Below, in pieces: positions 259 to 48,017 of a DNA stretch of 48,017 bases (within the stretch, counting starts at the first letter, position 1; each line of letters begins with the position of its first letter). Below the pieces are notes generated by a model. The model saw only the letters and a list, made by a program, of their open reading frames with translations. It was not told the origin of the DNA and did not search any database. Made by a program: the position numbers and the translations under genes. The stretch covers positions 1 to 48,017 of the forward strand of contig SHWW01000006.1 of NCBI GenBank assembly GCA_009693635.1, in the 5' to 3' direction. The DNA comes from Flavobacteriaceae bacterium. Its GTDB lineage: Bacteria; Bacteroidota; Bacteroidia; Flavobacteriales; Flavobacteriaceae.

Positions 259-291
259 CAAAAATACGAAAATAATTAGATAATTTGCCAA
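259..291 (-). promoter_or_regulatory. Bacteroidota-type promoter of pyrG
   Basis: On the minus strand a TTG (289-291) is followed after 22 bases by TATTTTTG (259-266), a match to the flavobacterial -33 TTG / -7 TAnnTTTG consensus. The start codon at 224 is about 35 bases downstream, which leaves a short untranslated leader. Inferred from the pattern only. Confidence 0.55.
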
Positions 292-359
292 TTTAGATAA
301 TAGATAATTAAAAAAAATTGACGGCAATTATAGCTTAATAATTCTTTTATTATTATAAT

Positions 360-602
360 TTATGGCTTCGGATATTTCATTCTAATGTTTCGAATTAATT
401 CCTCCAAACCGTTTAATTTCAGCTCATAGACCAACTGAAGTTGTTTACCTAATTGCCCTTTTGGGAAACCTTTATTGCTATACCAAACCACATAATATTC
501 TGGCAAATCAATTAAATGCAAGCCTTCGTATTTGCCGAAAGGCATTTTTGTATGCGCTAAAATGATAAGTTGTTGTTGGTTTTTATCCAAAATTATTTCC
601 AA
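360..602 (-). CDS. DUF3820 family small protein
   Basis: An 80-residue protein with the core MPFGKYEG...LIDLPEYYVVWY and GFPKGQLG typical of the DUF3820 family, small cytoplasmic proteins of unknown role (some relatives carry a quorum-sensing-regulated factor label; I would not transfer that function). The only start that keeps the conserved residues before MPFGKYEG is TTG at 602: the codon just upstream is a TAA, and the first in-frame ATG lies inside the conserved core. The gene overlaps the end of the OsmC gene by 10 bases, so it is probably translated by coupling as the last gene of the guaA-LysM-osmC unit. Family call good, function unknown. Confidence 0.85.
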   Translation of the reverse strand: MEIILDKNQQQLIILAHTKMPFGKYEGLHLIDLPEYYVVWYSNKGFPKGQLGKQLQLVYELKLNGLEELIRNIRMKYPKP

Positions 603-994
603 TTAAAAATAATTCTCTTATCAATTTCAGGATGTAAACTTAATAAAACTGGACAATTCATTGCGGCTCTTTCCAAAATAATTTTGGTTTTTTCGTCGGG
701 AGCGATTGTCATATTAAGGACAATTTCGATAGCTCCAATTCTTCTTGGTTCGGCTTGCATAATTTTAGTTACTTCGACAGTAGAATCCAATAAATCTACA
801 TTCAAATCTTTTGACTTTATTGCCATTATAGAAATCATGCAACTTCCTAATGCTGTTGCCAACAAATCAGTTGGCGAAAAAGCTTCTCCTTTTCCGTGGT
901 TGTCGGTTGGTGCATCCGTTAAAATTTCTGATTCCGATTGAATATGAATAGCCGAAGTTCGTAATTCTCCTAAATAAGTGATTTTTGAAGTCAT
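593..994 (-). CDS. OsmC family peroxiredoxin-like protein
   Basis: A 133-residue OsmC-fold protein. The family reduces organic or fatty hydroperoxides with two cysteines; here these are Cys52 (ATALGSCMIS) and Cys114 (MNCPVLLSL), both in the expected places, and the length is normal. The early segment HGKGEAFSPTDLL is also typical. The ATG shares one base with the TAA of the upstream LysM gene (TAATG) and the 3' end overlaps the DUF3820 gene, so the three are probably one transcript. It could equally be called an OsmC/Ohr-like protein of the YhfA type; the actual substrate is not visible. Confidence 0.93.
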   Translation of the reverse strand: MTSKITYLGELRTSAIHIQSESEILTDAPTDNHGKGEAFSPTDLLATALGSCMISIMAIKSKDLNVDLLDSTVEVTKIMQAEPRRIGAIEIVLNMTIAPDEKTKIILERAAMNCPVLLSLHPEIDKRIIFNWK

Positions 995-2763
995 TATTCT
1001 GCTTGTTTTATGGTTAAATCGGTATCGTAATACAATATATAAATCCCTTTATTGCTATAACTTTCCACACTATTTTTACTGTAACTGAATTTGTTTTCTA
1101 TTTGTTCAGTAGCAACATTTTCAGAAGTTTCTTGATAGTTTTTATCTTGTGATAATCTTAATAGTGTGTCAAATGTTAAGTCAAAGCCACGAATTGCGAA
1201 TTGGTTTGGAAATACTTTGTTCACTTTTTTAAAATCATTTCTAAAAATGTCAGCTTCTCGAGTTGAGTTTTCACGAACAATTGAAGGATATAACATTTTT
1301 AATTTAGTCAAACGACTCAAATCAATTTCATCAAAATCTAATGTTGAATTGGCTTCTAAAATTACTAATTGCACTTGATATTCTGGCATTAAAACCAACA
1401 TCGCATTGGTTACAGCCAAAATTACATTTGTTTTTTGAGAATCTAAAACAACATAATTCATCTTGTTTTTCAGAAACAATTTCTTCAAACTGTCTTTAGC
1501 AATGCTTCCCTTTTCATTGAAACCAACTATTTTAATTCCTTTTTTACTTTTGATAAAAAAATCTTTCAAAGTAGTTTTTTTAGCATCGATTACGGCAACT
1601 ATATTTCCATTTTTTTTATAAATATAATCTAATATTGCTGCCTTAGAATCGTCATTTGAAGGCATCGATTGGTACAAATTAGGAATAGATTTACCTATTT
1701 CTTTTGATAAAGGTGAAATCACAGGAACGTTATTCGAGCTTACCAATTCTGCTAATTTTTCAACATTTGTTTGATAAAAAGGACCGATAATAGCATCAGC
1801 ATTTTGAAGATTATTCTGTTGCACTAATTTAGTAATTGCTGATGAATTCTTAGTTTCTTCAGAATCTAAAATCCGAACGTTGACATTTAATCCAATAACT
1901 TTTGCAGAATCAATTGCCATCAAAACGCCTGAATAAAAGTCCAAAGTCATATTCAGAAATTTGTCTTTTTTTAATTTTGATGCAACCGAATTCAAACTGT
2001 CATTTTCTATTTTTAAAATATTAAATGGCAATAACAAAACCAATTGTTTGGCATTTTGAGAAGTGCTACTTTTTGTTAGTTTAGAAAATACTTTATTCGA
2101 CTTTACAATGTCTTCAATTTTTATAGATTTGGACGTTATAGCTACTTCTGGCTGTTCTTTTGAAATAAATTTATTAATTATTCCACTCACAATTAGCTTA
2201 TAACCAATTGGCAAGCCCGAAATAATTTCTGGATTTAATTGCTCCAATTGTTCTACTGTTAACGTATATTTATTTGCAATAGCATATTTAGTTTCCTTTG
2301 GTAAAACTTCGTGATAAATAATTTTATCCGAAGCTTTTACATTAGTTTTAACCGCTAATTTCAATGTTGATTTTGATGGAATAACAAGCATTTGACCAAT
2401 TTTCAAACCTTCCTTTAAACCGTCTTTATTAATAATTTGTATATCTTCAACCGAAACAGCATACAAATTTGAAATACTATAAACTGTTTCTTTTGCAAGA
2501 ACTTCGTGAATTTTTTGTTTGCCATTTATGGATGAAACTGCAGGTGCTTTCAATTTTGAAACAGGAATCAACAACACCGAATTTAATTTAACTCCGCTTT
2601 GAGCATCGGGATTCAAATTATAAATATCTAAAGGTGAAACTTTATATTTGAGAGCAATTTGCGTAATCGTTTCCCCTTTGAGAACGATATGTTTAGTGTA
2701 ATTCTGTCCAAAAAGAGAAGACGTAAAAACCAATACAAGAATGAAAATTACTCTTTTAAACAT
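994..2763 (-). CDS. Secreted triple-LysM protein with periplasmic-binding-like domain
   Basis: A 589-residue exported protein: signal peptide at residues 1-19 (ending SSLFGQ), then three LysM modules at about 22-66, 85-128 and 150-193, each with the pattern H-x-V-L-x-(G/K)-E-T...Y and ending in an N-P or N-x-D turn. LysM modules bind the glycan of peptidoglycan. From about residue 240 to 570 the sequence resembles the type I periplasmic-binding fold of amino-acid ABC receptors (blocks LLLPFN, DFYSGVLMAID, ADAIIGPFYQ, NVPVISPLS). No transporter genes are next to it, so it may be a cell-wall-anchored sensor or a regulator of wall enzymes comparable to LpoA rather than a transporter part; that is inference. 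It lies 33 bases after guaA and is probably cotranscribed with it. Confidence 0.85.
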   Translation of the reverse strand: MFKRVIFILVLVFTSSLFGQNYTKHIVLKGETITQIALKYKVSPLDIYNLNPDAQSGVKLNSVLLIPVSKLKAPAVSSINGKQKIHEVLAKETVYSISNLYAVSVEDIQIINKDGLKEGLKIGQMLVIPSKSTLKLAVKTNVKASDKIIYHEVLPKETKYAIANKYTLTVEQLEQLNPEIISGLPIGYKLIVSGIINKFISKEQPEVAITSKSIKIEDIVKSNKVFSKLTKSSTSQNAKQLVLLLPFNILKIENDSLNSVASKLKKDKFLNMTLDFYSGVLMAIDSAKVIGLNVNVRILDSEETKNSSAITKLVQQNNLQNADAIIGPFYQTNVEKLAELVSSNNVPVISPLSKEIGKSIPNLYQSMPSNDDSKAAILDYIYKKNGNIVAVIDAKKTTLKDFFIKSKKGIKIVGFNEKGSIAKDSLKKLFLKNKMNYVVLDSQKTNVILAVTNAMLVLMPEYQVQLVILEANSTLDFDEIDLSRLTKLKMLYPSIVRENSTREADIFRNDFKKVNKVFPNQFAIRGFDLTFDTLLRLSQDKNYQETSENVATEQIENKFSYSKNSVESYSNKGIYILYYDTDLTIKQAE

Positions 2764-2796
2764 AGCTTTAACTTTTAAAATTCAATTGGAATAATG

Positions 2797-4326
2797 CTAT
2801 TCCCACTCAATTGTTGCAGGTGGTTTAGAGCTAATATCATAAACAACTCTGTTTACACCTGGTACTTTATTGATAATATCATTTGAAACTTTCATCAAGA
2901 AATCATAAGGTAAATGTACCCAATCTGCGGTCATTCCATCTGTAGATTCCACTGCGCGAAGGGCTACCACTTTTTCATAGGTTCGCTCATCGCCCATTAC
3001 TCCTACACTATTCACAGGAAGTAAAATTGCACCCGCTTGCCAAACTTTGTCATACAATCCCCAAGATTTCAAACCGTCAATAAAAACGGCATCAACTTCT
3101 TGCAAGATACGCACTTTTTCGGGTGTAATATCGCCCAAAATACGAATTGACAATCCTGGCCCTGGAAAAGGATGTCTTCCTAATAATGCCGCATCAATTC
3201 CTAAGGTCGCTCCCACTCTACGCACTTCATCTTTGAATAACATTCGAAGTGGTTCTACGATTTTCAATTTCATATAATCTGGTAAACCTCCCACATTATG
3301 ATGTGATTTGATTGTTGCTGAAGGTCCTTTTACAGAAACCGACTCAATTACATCAGGATAAATGGTTCCTTGAGCCAACCATTTTACGTTTTCAATTCGG
3401 TGTGATTCATCATCAAAAACTTCAATGAAAACTCTACCAATTGCTTTTCTTTTTAATTCTGGGTCTTCAACTCCTGCCAAAGCGTCCAAAAAACGTGCCG
3501 AGGCATCCACACCTTTTACGTTCAAACCCATTCCTTTATATTGATCCAAAACTTGTTCAAATTCATTTTTTCGCAACAAACCGTTATTTACGAAAATACA
3601 ATATAGGTTTTCACCAATGGCTTTATGCAATAAAACTGCGGCCACCGTTGAATCTACTCCACCTGAAAGTCCCAAAACTACTTTGTCATTTTGAACTTTT
3701 CCTTTTAATTCCGAAACCATATCTTCAACGAAAGCATTTGGTGTAAAAGTTTGAGGTACATCGGCAATTTTAACTAAGAAATTCTCCAACATTTGTTTCC
3801 CATCTGAAGAATGAAAAACCTCTGGATGGTACTGAATTGCATACGTAGTTTCGCCTTCAATTTTGTAAGCAGCAAATTCCACATCATTTGTGCTAGCAAG
3901 CTTTAGCCCTTTTTTAGGAAGTACTTTTATACTATCGCTATGGCTCATCCAAACTTGTGAATTTTCAGAAACTCCATCGAAAAAAATTTCATTTTCTTTG
4001 ATAAAAGACAAATTGGCCCTGCCGTATTCTCTGGTGTTGGAAGCCGCTACTTCCCCACCACTAAAATGGGCTAAATATTGCGCTCCGTAACAAACGGCAA
4101 GCAAAGGTAATTTGCCTCTAATTTGGGATAAGTTTGGATGTGGCGCATCTTCTGAACGAACAGAGAATGGGCTTCCACCAAGAATTACAGCTTTATAACT
4201 TGATAAATCACTCGGAATGTGATTGTAGGGAAAGATTTCGCAGAATATATTTAATTCCCGAACTCTTCTTGCAATAAGTTGTGTGTATTGCGATCCGAAA
4301 TCTAAAATGAGTACGTTGTGTTGCAT
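2797..4326 (-). CDS. guaA: GMP synthase (glutamine-hydrolysing)
   Basis: A 509-residue two-domain enzyme that aminates XMP to GMP with glutamine and ATP. The N-terminal class I glutaminase has its nucleophile Cys79 in LLAVCYGAQ and the His-Glu pair in QYHPEVFHS. The ATP-pyrophosphatase domain has [10 protein letters not shown] near residue 225. The C-terminal dimerisation domain ends in [11 protein letters not shown], the hallmark of the family. The ORF-track start at 4332 is a TTG; ATG at 4326 ([14 protein letters not shown]) matches the usual N-terminus. A TAATTTTG box lies only three bases upstream of this ATG (see findings). Identification certain. Confidence 0.98.
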
Positions 4327-4532
4327 GTGCAAAATTACTTTTAAAAATCGGAACTGAAAAATGGAATTTTGATATTTTTAAAATTATTTTCATTTGATTT
4401 CAAATACTTTTTTTACAAAAAAATCGTTAAACTTTTAATATCAATGCAAAACCCAAAAAATAAATTATTTTTGTAGATGCATTTAAAAAAAAATATGGAA
4501 ATTTGTAAACTTACTAAATTAAAATAATAGCT

Positions 4533-5240
4533 ATGTTTTTAAACTTTTTGCTTCAAGCCGCGAATCCTATTGCTGACCCTCCTGCGAATACTTTGGCGAA
4601 TTCCGAAATGAATGTTAGTGTTACTGAAAGCGTTTCCTATTTGGATTTTTTGCTAAAAGGTGGAATTATGATTATTCCAATTATTTTGCTGTTATTCTTT
4701 TGTATTTATGTAATTATTGAAAGGTATTTATCCATCAAAAAAGCGACTAAACAAGATGCAAATTTGATTAGCGATGTAAAGATGCAATTGAAATCTGGTA
4801 AATTAGACAATGCAATTATGATGTGTAGTCGCGAGAATACGGCATCTGGAAATATTATGAAAAGTGGAATTTCAATTATAGGAAGACCCATTAGCGAAAT
4901 TGAATCGGTGATGGAACGTACCGCAAATGTAGAAATTGCAGAAATGGAAAAAGGTTTGGGACATTTGGGATTGATTTCTGGAATTGCACCAATTCTTGGT
5001 TTTATCGGAACAATTTCTGGGGTTATAAAAATATTTCATACGATTTCAAATACAGGAAATTTGAATATTCAAACAATTTCTGGGGGTTTATATGAAAAAA
5101 TGATTAGTAGTGGTGCCGGACTTGTTGTGGGAGTAGTTGCTTATTCTGCCTATCATTTATTCAATATGATGATTGATAGTTTTTCACTTAAAGTACAAAA
5201 ACAGACTTTAGAAATCATTAACGTAATTCAACAACCGTAA
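4533..5240 (+). CDS. exbB: MotA/TolQ/ExbB proton channel family protein
   Basis: A 235-residue inner-membrane protein. One transmembrane segment is at about residues 43-68 and two more at about 145-170 and 190-215, separated by a cytoplasmic stretch rich in charged residues; this is the ExbB/TolQ topology. The motif GHLGLISGIAPILGFIGTISGVI is the conserved transmembrane region that lines the proton path. With ExbD it uses the proton-motive force to energise TonB-dependent outer-membrane uptake or Tol functions. It is followed after one base by the exbD gene. A TATTTTTG -7 box lies at 4466-4473, without a clear TTG partner. ExbB versus TolQ cannot be decided from sequence alone. Confidence 0.93.
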   Translation: MFLNFLLQAANPIADPPANTLANSEMNVSVTESVSYLDFLLKGGIMIIPIILLLFFCIYVIIERYLSIKKATKQDANLISDVKMQLKSGKLDNAIMMCSRENTASGNIMKSGISIIGRPISEIESVMERTANVEIAEMEKGLGHLGLISGIAPILGFIGTISGVIKIFHTISNTGNLNIQTISGGLYEKMISSGAGLVVGVVAYSAYHLFNMMIDSFSLKVQKQTLEIINVIQQP

Positions 5241-41213: not shown

Positions 41214-42257
41214 ATGAATAAATATTTTAAAATAATTTTATTTCTTGTTATTGGAATAACAATTGCTTCATGTTCAAAAACCGATCCTACTCCTGAAGTA
41301 GCTTTGAGGGATTACAAAGTTCAATATGCAACTGACATGGATTCTATTAACAAATATATAGATACTCATTACATAACAGTTGATTCCGATTACAATGTTA
41401 CTATGACTAAAATTCCTATTGGTGGGTCACAACAATCTATTCGGTTGCAACAAACGTTTCCATTACAATTCAAAATGGTCCAAAATGACGATCATGATGT
41501 AAACTATAAGATTTATTATTTAAATTTGCGTGAAGGTACTTCTCAAAGTACAAGTGCAGTAGACTCTGTATATGTATCGTATAGAGGTATTTTAGTTTCG
41601 GATCAACAATTTGATTACTCTGAAACTCCAATTTGGTTTCAATTGCAATCGGTTGTTGAGGGTTGGGGAGAAATTATCCCTTTGTTTAAAACTGGGACAT
41701 ACGACACTGCAGAAGGGCCAAATCCTACAACATTCACAAATTTTGGAGCAGGCGTCATGTTCCTCCCATCGGGATTAGGATATTACAACCAAATTCCGTC
41801 AGCAAATATTCCCTATTATTCTCCATTGATTTTCAGTTTTAAATTAAAAAGTCAACGAAGTAGAGATCATGATAGAGACGGTGTTTTATCTAAATATGAA
41901 GTAAGTCAAACCGTGGTAGGACAAAAACCTAAAGATTACGATAGTGATGGTGATAAAATACCTAATTATTATGATATTGATGACGATGGAGACTATTTTA
42001 TGACTAAAGTAGAAATTAAACGACCTAACGTACTAAATTCAAATAACATTTCTGTTCCTAATGGCTATTTTTCTTTTAATGGCGCAGCTATTGATAATCC
42101 TTTAACTCCTAATATTGACGAAAGACAAGGTATACCTAGAAAATATACAGGACCGGTAAATACTAATAATTTACCGACTCCTTTACCAGCAGATTTTACA
42201 GATCCTACAAGGATAAGAAGATATCTAGATCCTACTAGTTACCCACCATTTGAATAA
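41214..42257 (+). CDS. FKBP-like lipoprotein with acidic Ca-binding-like repeats
   Basis: A 347-residue lipoprotein: signal with lipobox ASC (Cys20). The middle (about 115-220) has the FKBP-type pattern VYVSYRGILVSDQQFDYSE and FGAGVMFLPSGLGYYNQ...NIPYYSPLIFSFKLK, with a partly changed active site. Directly after, two acidic repeats appear: DHDRDGVLSKYE and DYDSDGDKIPNYYDIDDDGD, in the style of thrombospondin type 3 / EF-hand calcium loops. The gene overlaps the next TonB-dependent receptor by eight bases, so they are coupled. It may fold or attend that receptor; this is inference. Catalysis should not be assumed. Confidence 0.8.
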   Translation: MNKYFKIILFLVIGITIASCSKTDPTPEVALRDYKVQYATDMDSINKYIDTHYITVDSDYNVTMTKIPIGGSQQSIRLQQTFPLQFKMVQNDDHDVNYKIYYLNLREGTSQSTSAVDSVYVSYRGILVSDQQFDYSETPIWFQLQSVVEGWGEIIPLFKTGTYDTAEGPNPTTFTNFGAGVMFLPSGLGYYNQIPSANIPYYSPLIFSFKLKSQRSRDHDRDGVLSKYEVSQTVVGQKPKDYDSDGDKIPNYYDIDDDGDYFMTKVEIKRPNVLNSNNISVPNGYFSFNGAAIDNPLTPNIDERQGIPRKYTGPVNTNNLPTPLPADFTDPTRIRRYLDPTSYPPFE

Positions 42258-44736
42258 GATTTATAAAAATATTAAAAATACCAATTTCTATTTATCACTA
42301 TTACTTATTTCATTTACTTCAATTATAGCTCAAAAAAGTACGGTAAAAGGTTTTGTAATAGACAATCAAACATTGGAACCTATTGAATATGCAAGTGTAG
42401 CATTATTAAATCAGATTGATAATTCTTTAGTTACTGGAGTTGTAACAAACAGAAATGGTGCTTTTACTATTCAAAATGTCCAAATGGGAAATTACATAAT
42501 CAAAATCTACTTTGTAGGATATGAAATTCAATATTTGGAAAATAATTTGGTTGAAAACAATCAAAATTTAAATCTACAAACTATAAAATTACAACTAAGT
42601 AATCAAGTATTGGAAGAAGTAATTGTTAAGGGAACAAAAGCAACATCGTATAATAAAATCGATAAACAACAATATAACTCCAATCAATTTGCAACCGCAA
42701 ATGGAGGAAATGCAATTGATATTATAAAAAATTTACCCTCAGTAACAGTGAATGGTCAGGGTGAAATTAGTTTTCGGGGTTCTAATGGATTTATGGTTTT
42801 GGTAAATGGGAAACCAGTTTTAACCGATGCGCAAACTGTTTTGAGTCAATTACCAGCAAACATGATTGAAAATATTGAATTAATAACCGCACCGTCTGCA
42901 AAATATGACCCCGATGGAAAAGGAGGAATCATAAATATCATTACCAAAAAAAATACTACAACCGGAACGGCATTGACATCAAATGTATCTGGTGGACTTC
43001 CAAGTACAGGCGATTATAATAATTTAGAAAAACCAAAACGATTTGGCGGCGATATAACGTTCAATTATAAATCCAAAAAATTCGATATTACCATTAGTGG
43101 AAATTATCTACGAAATGATGTAAATGGTTTCCGTGAAGGAAATGTATTTACCAAAAACTTTACTAATAATACCATCACTCGATTTCCATCGAAAGGAGAA
43201 CGAAGTTTTGACAAGTATAATTATGGAACAAAAACGGCGGTTTCTTATACTGCAAATAAAAATGATGTCTTTAACTTTGGTTTCTTTATAGGTAGAAAAT
43301 TCCAAGCCCGACGTGCAGATATTGTGTATTCTAATTCGACTTCTGATTTAAATACCAATACCTTACTTAGTGAGAACGCCTATTTTAATTCTAATGTTCA
43401 AACCAAAGAAGGTACATTTACGTTGACTAATCTTGATTACACGCATACATTTGCAAATAAATCAAATTTGACGACTTCAATTTTATATGAAAATGCTGAT
43501 TTATATGGTAATACAATCAATAAAAATTTAGATTTAGCCACAAAATCAATTGTTTTACAAGAAGTAAATAATCCTTATAAAAATCCAATTGACGGCTTCC
43601 GATTTAAATTAGATTATACAATTGCAATTGGTTTGGGGAAGTTAGAAAGTGGCTATCAGTTCCGATTCGACCAACAAAACGGAAATTTTGATTATATCGT
43701 TACACCCATTTCAGCTCAACCAGACGTAGCAAATTTCAGAGGGACTGCAAAATCTGTAAACCATATCAATGGATGCTATTCACAATATAGTGGCAAAACT
43801 AACAAATTGGATTACACCGCTGGATTGCGCTATGAATACTCGGCAAGAGAAGTTATTTTATCCACAGATTCCAATCCTCATCTATTGAACTTGAGTAATT
43901 TATTTCCATCTGCCAATTTATTATATACATTTAATACGTCTTGGAATACCAAATTAGGTTACAGTAAACGAATACAACGGAACAATAATTTTGAGTTAAA
44001 CCCTATACCAGAAAGAGAACATTCAGAAACATTGGAACAAGGCGACCCCGATTTAAAGCCCCAATTTGTAGATTTATTTGAAATTGGTATGAACCACAGT
44101 TTCAAAAAAGGGACTTTATTTGCAACATTATATTATCAGAATATCAAAAACCCAATTCAACGCGTAAATAGTGTTTATGCAGACACAATTTTGAATAGAG
44201 TTTTTACAAATGCCGAAAAAGCAAGATTATTTGGATTAGAATTTGGAACCAGTTTAAAGCCTTTGAAATGGGTTTCAATTTATGTAGGTGGGAATGTTTA
44301 TAATTATAAAATTACAGGTAAATTGAACATTTTGGGAATTACATCAAAAGTGGATAATTCTAATTGGGCCTATTCGTTAAATACGAACACTACTTTCAAT
44401 CTAGGAAAAACATTGAGTCTTACAGCCAATGTAAATTATACTTCAGCAAAACCAACAGCTCAAGGTGAAGATTCCCGATTTTTATCACCTAATTTGTCTG
44501 TCAAAAAAACTATTTTGAATGGAAATGGAACTATAGGGTTGCAATGGCAAAATATTAATTTTGGAAATATGGGTTCGAACCAACAACGGATTACAACTTT
44601 TGGAACTGATTTTTATACAACAACAAACTACAGCTATGAAACCAATGTTTTATTATTGAATTTTAGTTATAATTTTAATAAAATCAATAGCAAAAACAAA
44701 CTTCCATCAAGTGAGATTGGAGAAAAAGAATTTTAG
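42250..44736 (+). CDS. TonB-dependent receptor, outer-membrane beta-barrel family
   Basis: An 828-residue outer-membrane protein. Signal peptide 1-27 (ending SIIAQ), a carboxypeptidase-regulatory-like domain at about 30-110 (VKGFVIDNQTLEPIEYASVA), a plug domain at about 135-235 with AKYDPDGKGGIINIITKKN, then a barrel from about 250 to the C-terminus, ending in Phe. This is the barrel family with the OMP_b-brl_3 type, not the SusC type in strict sense. Start is TTG at 42250, overlapping the previous gene by 8 bases; an in-frame stop lies just upstream and no ATG is near. Substrate unknown; energised through the ExbB/ExbD type motor. Confidence 0.9.
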   Translation: MNKIYKNIKNTNFYLSLLLISFTSIIAQKSTVKGFVIDNQTLEPIEYASVALLNQIDNSLVTGVVTNRNGAFTIQNVQMGNYIIKIYFVGYEIQYLENNLVENNQNLNLQTIKLQLSNQVLEEVIVKGTKATSYNKIDKQQYNSNQFATANGGNAIDIIKNLPSVTVNGQGEISFRGSNGFMVLVNGKPVLTDAQTVLSQLPANMIENIELITAPSAKYDPDGKGGIINIITKKNTTTGTALTSNVSGGLPSTGDYNNLEKPKRFGGDITFNYKSKKFDITISGNYLRNDVNGFREGNVFTKNFTNNTITRFPSKGERSFDKYNYGTKTAVSYTANKNDVFNFGFFIGRKFQARRADIVYSNSTSDLNTNTLLSENAYFNSNVQTKEGTFTLTNLDYTHTFANKSNLTTSILYENADLYGNTINKNLDLATKSIVLQEVNNPYKNPIDGFRFKLDYTIAIGLGKLESGYQFRFDQQNGNFDYIVTPISAQPDVANFRGTAKSVNHINGCYSQYSGKTNKLDYTAGLRYEYSAREVILSTDSNPHLLNLSNLFPSANLLYTFNTSWNTKLGYSKRIQRNNNFELNPIPEREHSETLEQGDPDLKPQFVDLFEIGMNHSFKKGTLFATLYYQNIKNPIQRVNSVYADTILNRVFTNAEKARLFGLEFGTSLKPLKWVSIYVGGNVYNYKITGKLNILGITSKVDNSNWAYSLNTNTTFNLGKTLSLTANVNYTSAKPTAQGEDSRFLSPNLSVKKTILNGNGTIGLQWQNINFGNMGSNQQRITTFGTDFYTTTNYSYETNVLLLNFSYNFNKINSKNKLPSSEIGEKEF

Positions 44737-44752
44737 TTTTAATCTATAATTT

Positions 44753-45102
44753 ATGAATTCAAAACCACTTAATTATTCAACGAGATTCCATTTGAAAATT
44801 GGAATGATTTCAGCAATTATAATTATAAAAACATCGGTTGTATTTTCACAAGTAATTTTAAATGCAAACGGACCAGGAAATACCTACGAAAGAATTACAA
44901 GTATTTTTGCTCCAGGAAATGGCGTAAGTGCATTAGAAGCTCCAGACTTATATCATCCTTGGAAATGGGAAAGTGCATAGCCAGAAACTGTAAAAGATTT
45001 AATGCTTTTGCTTATTTTTATGGAAAACAATTACAAGAAATTTTAGACGTTCCTATAGGTTTAATAATGACTTCATGGGGGGGAACTCGGATTCAACCCT
45101 AG
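44753..45102 (+). pseudogene. Broken sialate O-acetylesterase-like gene, chimeric 5' end
   Basis: The track shows only 75 codons (44753-44980): a signal peptide and QVILNANGPGNTYERITSIF, resembling the N-terminus of a secreted carbohydrate-locus protein of another kind. From LYHPWKWESA the sequence changes to that of a sialate (or pectin) O-acetylesterase: after an in-frame TAG it continues in the same frame as PETVKD, then shifts by one base and reads NAFAYFYGKQLQEILDVPIG and LIMTSWGGTRIQP before a stop at 45100-45102. GLIMTSWGGT is the family motif. So there is one nonsense codon, one frameshift and an early end. Probably a deletion fused two genes of the former locus. Not functional. Confidence 0.75.
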
Positions 45103-45205
45103 AACGAATGATTGGGAATAAATATCAAAAATTCCACAAGTTTTCACAATATTAAGAGTAAAAATTTGTGGAATCTAAATTGGACTAATTGTGTAAAGGG
45201 TCTGC
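45103..45205. other. Intergenic stretch after the pseudogene
   Basis: About 100 bases with no gene, RNA or repeat I can support. Together with the pseudogene this makes 469 bases between the receptor gene and the DUF4861 gene without a functional gene. Confidence 0.5.
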
Positions 45206-46381
45206 TTATTTAATCTTTACAATAAGTGGACTATTAATTTTAGTAGCATATTGTTCTAAATACTTTTCCCAAGCTTCTTTAGTTGTGAATTCACCTTGTT
45301 TTTTCCAACCAAATCCAGTGTAATAGGTCACTTTATTATTTACCACTTTCAGGGCTGCATACAAATTACAAAGTTCTTTATTTGGATTCATGTATTTTTC
45401 TGCACTAATCATAGTATTTTTTGGAAAAACAATACCCGTACCTAATTCAGAATCATCAATAGGTTGCCAATAATCAATCCAACCTGCATTAAAATTAGAT
45501 TCCGTTTTACCATCGTTATTGTGCAAAGTAATTCCTGTAGAAAGTGTATTTATGCCAGAAACTTGAATTTCAAATTTAGAAAGAAAACTTCCGTAATCTA
45601 AACTGATGTGTTTTACCTCTTTAATTTTATTTCCTTTGGCATCCCAATCAGCATAAGTTAGTGTAAAACTTGTTCTAAGAGGTCCAGTGGTAATTGTTTT
45701 CCAAGAAATGAAGTTTTTAGAATAGTAATATGTTGAATCTATTTTAACCGCTATTCCTCCAATTCCGCGACTATCACCAACGTGAAAGTTATCTAAACCC
45801 TCACCAGTATCTTTGTGATAAGTTCCTGTTCCTGTAGTATATTTTTCATACCATTTATTTATCACGGGATATTCAACTCTCTTTAACCAAGCGTCAATTC
45901 CACTAGTTAAAGTTCCGCCTTTTACTTTGTCTTCGGCCATTTTTTGAGCCACAGGTCCGTAAGTTCTAAATGCCACTTTGTTGTTTTCCCAGGCGTAATC
46001 ATCAGTTCTTTCGGGAACAAATCTGGAATAACAAAAAATTATTGGGTCTTTAGTTTTAGTATCTGTATTGAATACGATTTCGTATTTATTTGTAGCTAAC
46101 GCTTTGATTTTAGGTTGGAATAACAACACGTCGTTAATTTCATCACCATTTTCATCCACACATTGAGAAATTAAGAAAGTAGAAGTTCCCAATTCTTTAA
46201 CCCGGTATTTTTCTAATTTATCAGAAGATTTTAGTCCTAATGAAGTTTTGGATAATTCTACAGTTTCAAACTCTCTATCGGTATTTAAAGAATTGGAAAT
46301 GGTAATTATTTTATTTTTTTGTGAAAACGATAATAACGTTGTGGATAGCAGTATTGCTGCAAAAACATTGCTTAGTTTCAT
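45206..46381 (-). CDS. DUF4861 domain-containing secreted protein
   Basis: A 391-residue protein with signal peptide 1-21 (MKLSNVFAAILLSTTLLSFS) and the DUF4861 family pattern (WLKRVEYPVINKWYEKY, DWDAKGNKIKEVKHISLDYGSF, GFGWKKQGEF). Family members are often found in pectin and other uronate-containing polysaccharide loci; their biochemical role is not settled. The ORF-track start (46408) is TTG within the SDR gene; ATG at 46381 is preferred. It begins four bases after the kduD stop, so the two are in one transcript, together with kduI. Probably surface or periplasmic. Confidence 0.85.
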   Translation of the reverse strand: MKLSNVFAAILLSTTLLSFSQKNKIITISNSLNTDREFETVELSKTSLGLKSSDKLEKYRVKELGTSTFLISQCVDENGDEINDVLLFQPKIKALATNKYEIVFNTDTKTKDPIIFCYSRFVPERTDDYAWENNKVAFRTYGPVAQKMAEDKVKGGTLTSGIDAWLKRVEYPVINKWYEKYTTGTGTYHKDTGEGLDNFHVGDSRGIGGIAVKIDSTYYYSKNFISWKTITTGPLRTSFTLTYADWDAKGNKIKEVKHISLDYGSFLSKFEIQVSGINTLSTGITLHNNDGKTESNFNAGWIDYWQPIDDSELGTGIVFPKNTMISAEKYMNPNKELCNLYAALKVVNNKVTYYTGFGWKKQGEFTTKEAWEKYLEQYATKINSPLIVKIK

Positions 46382-46385
46382 GCTC

Positions 46386-47177
46386 TTATTCGTTTGAAGG
46401 TTTTCCAATTGTAGCTAATATTCCGCCATCTACATATAAAATATGACCGTTAACGAAATCACTCGCTTTTGAAGAAAGAAATATAGCTGCGCCTGATAAA
46501 TCATCCGGATTTCCCCATTTTGCTGCTGGAGTTCTGTTTATAATAAATTCGTTAAACGGATGTCCATCTACCCGAATTAGTTCTGTTTGTGCTGTAGCAA
46601 AATATCCTGGCCCAATTCCGTTGACTTGAACATTGTGTTTTGCCCATTCTGTTGCCATGTTTTTGGTAAGCATTTTTAGTCCTCCTTTTGCAGCAGCATA
46701 AGCCCCTACTCCATTTCTACCCAATTCACTCATCATAGAACAGATATTAATTATTTTTCCTTGTTGTCTATCAATCATTCCTTTTGCAACATGTTTTGAA
46801 ACGATAAAAGGACTTACCAAATCAATATCAACAACTTCTTTAAAATCAGTAACTTCCATTTCAATTAATGGGATACGTTTGATAATTCCAGCGTTATTAA
46901 TTAAAATATCGATTGTACCCACTTCACTTTCAATTTTGCTAATAGCAGCAATAACTTCACTTTCAACAGCTACATTAAATTTGTAACCAAAAGCAGTGAT
47001 ACCTTCTTTTTTAAATTCCAATACCGCTTCATCAATTTTAGGTTGAGAAGAATTTCCATTTATAATAATAGTGGCGCCAGCATGTCCTAAACCTTTGGCC
47101 ATAGCCATACCTAAACCGTGCGTACTACCTGTTACTAAAGCTATTTTTCCTTTTATGTCAAATAATGAGTTTCCCAT
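46386..47177 (-). CDS. kduD: 2-deoxy-D-gluconate 3-dehydrogenase / KduD-type SDR
   Basis: A 263-residue short-chain dehydrogenase. NAD(P) motif TGSTHGLG at 16-23, NNAG near 93, catalytic Ser near 146 and YAAAK near 158. The order and the neighbour kduI fit KduD, which reduces 2,5-diketo-3-deoxygluconate to 2-keto-3-deoxygluconate in the breakdown of pectin and other uronates. A gluconate 5-dehydrogenase function is the alternative in the same SDR subfamily. It begins one base after the kduI stop and ends four bases before DUF4861. Confidence 0.85.
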   Translation of the reverse strand: MGNSLFDIKGKIALVTGSTHGLGMAMAKGLGHAGATIIINGNSSQPKIDEAVLEFKKEGITAFGYKFNVAVESEVIAAISKIESEVGTIDILINNAGIIKRIPLIEMEVTDFKEVVDIDLVSPFIVSKHVAKGMIDRQQGKIINICSMMSELGRNGVGAYAAAKGGLKMLTKNMATEWAKHNVQVNGIGPGYFATAQTELIRVDGHPFNEFIINRTPAAKWGNPDDLSGAAIFLSSKASDFVNGHILYVDGGILATIGKPSNE

Positions 47178-47178
47178 A

Positions 47179-48017
47179 TTATCTTAAATCTGTTATTTTG
47201 CAAACATCCATATCTCCATAATCCAGATTTTCTCCTGCCATTCCCCAAATAAAAGTATAATTAGAAGTTCCTGCACCCGAATGAATTGACCATGGTGGAG
47301 AAATTACCGCTTGGTGGTTGTTCATCCAAATGTGACGAGTTTCATCAGTTTGTCCCATAAAATGACATACCGCTTGGTTTTCTGGAATATCTAAATAGAA
47401 ATACACTTCCATTCTTCTGTCGTGCACATGAGCTGGCATTGTGTTCCAAACACTTCCCGTTTTTAATTCCGTCATTCCCATTTGCAATTGGCATGTAGTT
47501 ACAATTCCACCAATTATCATTTGGTTTACCGTGCGATGATTTGCAGTTTCCATTGAACCCAGTTGCAATTTATTTGCTTCAGCAAGACTAACTTTTTTAT
47601 TTGGATAATTGGTGTGTGCAGGAGCAGAATTTAGGTAAAATTTTGCTGGATTATTAGAATCCTGACTTTTAAAAAGTACTTCTTTAATTCCACTTCCAAT
47701 ATATAGTGCATCTTTAAATCCCAATTCGTAAACCACACCATCGGCAGTAACCGTTCCGTTTCCACCTACGTTTATAATTCCTAATTCTCTTCTTTCAAGA
47801 AAATAACTAGATTTTAAAGGGTCTATGGTTTCTAGAGTTAATGGTTCTAATGGAACTGCTGAACCCGCAATATATCTGTCGTAATGAGAATACGTAAGAT
47901 TAACTTTACCTACTTCCATTAAATTGTCAATTAAAAATTCGGCTCTTAATTGTGCAGTATTATATTCTTTTCCGGCTTGCGGACTTGAAGCGTATCTTGT
48001 TTCGTAAGAGGTAGACA
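47179..48017 (-). CDS. kduI: 5-keto-4-deoxyuronate isomerase KduI (5' end cut by window edge)
   Basis: The ORF track starts at 47919 (246 codons), but the frame continues upstream to base 48017 without a stop, adding 32 codons that read STSYETRYASSP...LRAEFLIDNL, the usual KduI N-terminus. Total visible length is 278 residues, close to the family's 278-280, so only the start codon and perhaps one or two residues are missing. The zinc site shows as PAHVHDRRMEVYFY with HxH and Glu. KduI converts 5-keto-4-deoxyuronate to 2,5-diketo-3-deoxygluconate, and kduD (one base downstream) does the next step. Confidence 0.95.
   Translation of the reverse strand, partial: STSYETRYASSPQAGKEYNTAQLRAEFLIDNLMEVGKVNLTYSHYDRYIAGSAVPLEPLTLETIDPLKSSYFLERRELGIINVGGNGTVTADGVVYELGFKDALYIGSGIKEVLFKSQDSNNPAKFYLNSAPAHTNYPNKKVSLAEANKLQLGSMETANHRTVNQMIIGGIVTTCQLQMGMTELKTGSVWNTMPAHVHDRRMEVYFYLDIPENQAVCHFMGQTDETRHIWMNNHQAVISPPWSIHSGAGTSNYTFIWGMAGENLDYGDMDVCKITDLR

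Follow-up and report, generated by a model that had tools for sequence, protein, structure and literature searches.

A deletion-made lyase–esterase pseudogene in a trimmed polysaccharide cluster of a freshwater Flavobacterium

A short stretch of plus-strand DNA at positions 44753-45121 almost certainly consists of dead scraps of a PF14099-like lyase gene and a SASA acetylesterase gene, neighbours in a polysaccharide utilization locus (PUL), which were cut and fused by deletions. It lies in a window of 48,017 nucleotides, which is the entire contig C41 of a draft genome (1.81 Mb in 87 contigs, 78.6% complete). The locus is an ordinary deletion-made pseudogene, a product of ordinary gene decay in a trimmed polysaccharide cluster of a freshwater Flavobacterium. 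Alignment with the intact syntenic genes of relatives shows two deletion joints, a stop codon and a frameshift.

The remnant comprises three pieces, which we delimited by searching 400 genomes from this genus at the nucleotide level; 400 family genomes were also searched. Piece 1 (44753-44962, plus strand) corresponds by DNA homology to the start of a secreted PF14099-like polysaccharide lyase (PL_A3), namely its signal peptide and initial ~70 codons, and is 79-86% identical at the DNA level to the 5' part of the whole lyase gene in G379, G141, G101, G158, L068 and others. From the TonB receptor upstream as far as 44962, the window and L068 (449-3108) are collinear. Piece 2 (44963-45098, plus strand), also placed by DNA homology, covers ~46 codons of the central part of the esterase (~167-212 in the intact gene) and shares 80-83% DNA identity with the intact SASA gene in G153, G043, G379, G014, L067 and L075. 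Finally, piece 3 (45101-45121, plus strand) comprises the six final esterase codons and the stop, RTNDWE*, aligned with RTDDWE* or RTDSWE* of intact SASA genes. The homology blocks match these pieces: positions 44842/45-44962 fall in the 5' part of the lyase, 44963-45098 in the middle of the esterase, and 45100-45191 in the esterase 3' end and the intergenic DNA behind it. A preliminary description had recognised a chimera of a secreted-protein start and a SASA esterase body, in agreement with the exact break of the blocks at 44962/44963, and its 75-codon open reading frame (44753-44980) is real. It had ended the feature at 45102, but the real end is 45121, and the third piece adds a second joint.

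In relatives the two parent genes are whole. The lyase and the esterase stand intact and adjacent in G014, G379, L067 and others, with ~1.4 kb between the corresponding blocks, and the comparison of the locus proposed earlier placed both genes side by side before the DUF4861-kduD-kduI block. Many genomes carry the array PL_A1-(TonB receptor)-PL_A3-SASA followed by convergent DUF4861, kduD and kduI. Its full order is gene X (T9SS-sorted), an optional BD-FAE esterase, PL_A1, an optional TonB receptor, PL_A3 and SASA, and beyond SASA the convergent DUF4861, kduD, kduI, SusD, SusC, a sulfatase and onward. Compared with the intact Flavobacterium PUL (G210, G050, G158, L067, L075), the window has the same gene order, and the lyase, esterase, DUF4861, kduD, kduI, SusD/C and sulfatase genes of that PUL share ~75-88% DNA identity with those of the source genome; the lyase and the esterase are whole there, whereas the window holds only scraps of them. 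In a more distant lineage (L117, from contig C7 of G002, and L071) the receptor directly precedes DUF4861 and the lyase and esterase are absent between them, possibly through independent loss or ancestral absence.

The intact esterase parent is a 471-aa SASA protein of the sialate O-acetylesterase family (PF03629), from which pieces 2 and 3 originate; its two contig-split parts score 56 and 30 bits against PF03629, above the cut-off of 24.8, and 7kmm and 9h4u are PDB relatives of the intact gene. The intact lyase parent scores 21-29.7 bits against PF14099, below the gathering cut-off of 29.9, with a best E-value of 7e-7. Its structure model was poor (pLDDT 55) and gave weak fold matches, among them the glucuronan lyase 2zzj, but also lectins. 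A PDB sequence search with the PF14099-like lyases and DUF4861 returned no useful match.

The lyase/esterase joint, J1, lies at 44962..44963, where blocks end and start in many relatives. Relatives have ~1.4 kb at the matching place (4754 to 6163 in L040), and clear microhomology is absent. The joint inside the esterase, J2, lies at 45098..45101; the 759 bp lost there from within the gene are still found in relatives, as measured in L067 (15100 to 15860) and L040 (6299 to 7059). No alignment crosses J1 or J2 in the 400 genus genomes or the fetched loci. The best genus matches of the remnant reach E-values down to 3e-34, while 100 dinucleotide-shuffled sequences gave no hit at 1e-6 in the collected loci.

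An assembly or binning artefact, in which two strains or loci were misjoined and the genes are intact in the organism, is very unlikely. The genome is a fragmented, incomplete metagenome-assembled one, and the cluster is split over three contigs, two of which overlap by 149 bp, as such an artefact might produce. However, the parent sequences at J1 and J2 have at most one or two bases in common, and a misassembly through a shared k-mer is improbable for this reason, there being no repeat on which a misjoin could form. The point lesions in the esterase piece and two more clean losses in a part of the cluster that lies on another contig also speak against it. No sister genome carrying the scar was found among the genus and family genomes, and the scar is known from one assembly.

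Both point lesions named in the preliminary description are present relative to the aligned relatives, and they set the remnant apart from all of them. An in-frame TAG (44978..44980, plus strand) replaces what are sense codons in the alignment of L014, L040, L041 and L048. Behind it, frame analysis shows the esterase frame picking up again, shifted by one base, at a T run (44998..45000, plus strand) that is one base longer in relatives. GQSNM, a SASA family motif, contains the catalytic serine and is visible in the intact esterase; the segment bearing it was removed at J1, and the C-terminal catalytic region lies within the segment removed at J2. Piece 2 thus contains no catalytic motif, both elements are missing from the SASA copy of the window, and because of their deletion the remnant cannot be an enzyme.

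Nor does the 75-codon frame seem to have acquired a role of its own. It is open and begins like a signal peptide, and could in principle encode a small secreted peptide that is functional and whose signal sequence is intact, but we consider this extremely improbable: the frame terminates at a stop inside the former esterase, and the fused form, including any full-length homologue with the same fused N-terminus, was absent from the 400 genus and 400 family genomes.

In the draft assembly (78.6% complete) we found no PL_A1, gene X or equivalent SASA copy outside this cluster, and no second PL_A3. Two further PF03629 matches are located on contig C46, next to a different SusC/D pair. Because these other SASA genes are kept, acetylesterase ability in general is not lost; the earlier suggestion that the handling of acetylated substrate had disappeared stands for the SASA gene of this cluster only, and not genome-wide.

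Upstream of the remnant, the TonB-dependent receptor of the same cluster (42250..44736, plus strand, assigned by Pfam) is intact, but analysis of its start region shows that the original ATG is lost. The TTG at 42250 overlaps the stop codon of an FKBP gene (TTGAATAA) and is the sole start that keeps the receptor signal peptide. In L067, L068, L069, L070, L074 and L075 the receptor stands between PL_A1 and PL_A3. One of these, L069, is a contig labelled Candidatus Nitrotoga (Betaproteobacteria) that bears the flavobacterial lyase-receptor-lyase array, probably through a binning error. In the window, by contrast with these arrays, gene X and PL_A1 are missing at a probable deletion joint, J0 (42271..42282), where the 3' flank of the FKBP gene is fused to receptor codons 2-6. 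Homology on the FKBP side reaches 42282 and homology on the receptor side begins at 42271, and TTAAAAATACC is shared by the two parents, being present in L048 (FKBP side) and in L075 (receptor side). The cluster directly follows the same FKBP gene in six genomes (G210, G050, G158, G101, G152 and G371). We found no genome in which a single array unites FKBP, gene X, PL_A1 and the receptor. The simplest reading of J0 would be a third deletion between short direct repeats. Such a deletion would have taken gene X, PL_A1, the FKBP terminator and the ATG of the receptor.

Downstream, a hairpin at 45131..45174 (MFE -15.2, z -3.7) separates the remnant from DUF4861. It is found at the same place in L067, L075 and L108 and is probably a convergent terminator. 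Palindromes almost identical to it are found at other places in the genus (L010, L035). The next gene, intact on the minus strand (45206..46408), encodes a DUF4861 / BT_3233-family polysaccharide utilization protein (PF16153, 290 bits; NF058564, 395 bits against a cut-off of 320); we found no paper on DUF4861. It is followed by an intact short-chain dehydrogenase (SDR) gene, KduD-like or gluconate 5-dehydrogenase (46386..47177, minus strand). This protein passes NF005488 (gluconate 5-dehydrogenase; 438 bits, cut-off 369) and fails the equivalog cut-off of TIGR01832 (kduD; 239 bits against 339), and, judged by these profile scores, gluconate 5-dehydrogenase is the better-suited name. KduI (PF04962; 47179..48017, minus strand) is cut by the contig end, with the rest on contig C23.

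Window positions 47869-48017 are identical to C23 1-149, and because of this exact 149-base overlap we regard the two contigs as adjacent. C23 and C33 carry the cluster onward in the order of G210. C23 encodes SusD, SusC (the pair at 263-5113, orthologous to the SusD/SusC of L041/L043), a sulfatase, a PF05426 lyase, a sulfatase, a 223-aa protein, a sulfatase-modifying enzyme, a sulfatase and a PL6 protein cut by the contig end. C33 continues with two sulfatases, of which the first is truncated by the contig end, and then with another PF05426 lyase, GH2 and GH88. Last comes a 1365-aa gene, which is the orthologue of a G210 gene and, from its N-terminus, looks like a hybrid two-component regulator. 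Compared with G210, G050 and G153, the cluster lacks the DUF1961 gene, cleanly lost near position 9508 of C23, and likewise the first PL6 gene, lost at C23 11357-11397. The cluster has kept SusC/D, five sulfatases, two PF05426 lyases, one PL6, GH2 and GH88. Pairwise dN/dS against relatives, which is blind to very recent change, shows the remaining cluster genes to be under ordinary constraint: 0.09-0.11 for the receptor, 0.07-0.10 for DUF4861, 0.04 for KduD, 0.13-0.17 for SusD and 0.07-0.10 for SusC. This test, insensitive as it is to recent change, gave no sign of relaxed selection on the receptor.

The pattern of losses could also reflect a selective abandonment of public goods, in which the external lyases and the esterase were dropped while uptake and sulfatases were kept by a scavenger of the products of others. 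This would refine the deletion-remnant explanation rather than compete with it, as both can hold. Three of the six lyases are gone together with the esterase, and SusC/D, the TonB receptor and the five assessed sulfatases are retained, as scavenging would have it. However, three of six lyases lost against 3 of 18 other genes gives a hypergeometric p of ~0.14 (hand calculation) with losses that are not independent, so that selective loss of the lyases as a class is not significant, and one PL6 and two PF05426 lyases are still there; on balance we consider this refinement unlikely. Quite unlikely, too, is a lineage caught in mid-conversion from a degrader to a scavenger locus, with the outward lyases and esterase lost first, uptake and desulfation retained, and the receptor now placed by one deletion behind an unrelated FKBP gene, its TTG start overlapping the stop of that gene.

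The intact cluster contains at least five sulfatases, a sulfatase-modifying enzyme, two chondroitinase-B/PL6-type lyases and PF05426 lyases. Its PL6 proteins are similar to solved PL6 alginate lyases and chondroitinase B, and its PF05426 lyases to the PDB entries 3nfv and 8bdq, which are members of CAZy family PL38. The PL38 enzymes characterised so far degrade alginate, glucuronan, or hyaluronan and chondroitin sulfate (PMC13027841). The five sulfatases and the sulfatase-modifying factor make a sulfated uronate polysaccharide the most likely substrate. GAG-type PULs, such as that of Roseihalotalea indica (PMC13027841), likewise combine PF05426-kind lyases and other lyases with SusC/D and an esterase, but PL8 and PL35 were not recognised in the source cluster. 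The trimmed pectin locus proposed earlier is borne out as a trimmed uronate locus by the intact arrays of many relatives. Its attribution to pectin is unsupported: the scanned cluster proteins, which cover part of the cluster genes, include no pectin-specific lyase and no GH28, and show sulfatases and PL6 instead.

As the comparison with intact relatives shows, two deletions took most of the lyase and the esterase and fused the leftovers. The TAG and the one-base frameshift in the esterase piece complete the inactivation, and any order of these events is our inference. Further deletions in the cluster probably took gene X, the second lyase, the DUF1961 protein and one PL6 lyase, while the uptake, sulfatase and uronate-catabolism genes stayed intact. 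We found nothing pertinent in the literature on PUL pseudogenes or on the PULs of freshwater Flavobacterium.

These results correct the annotation, in that there is no esterase at 44753-45121, and replace the guess of pectin with that of a substrate that is probably a sulfated uronate polysaccharide. The locus represents a well-delimited case in which a polysaccharide locus of a small-genome Flavobacterium has been trimmed step by step, and many relatives offer intact counterparts with which to compare it. Most likely, the trimmed cluster still handles part of its substrate with a reduced set of enzymes.
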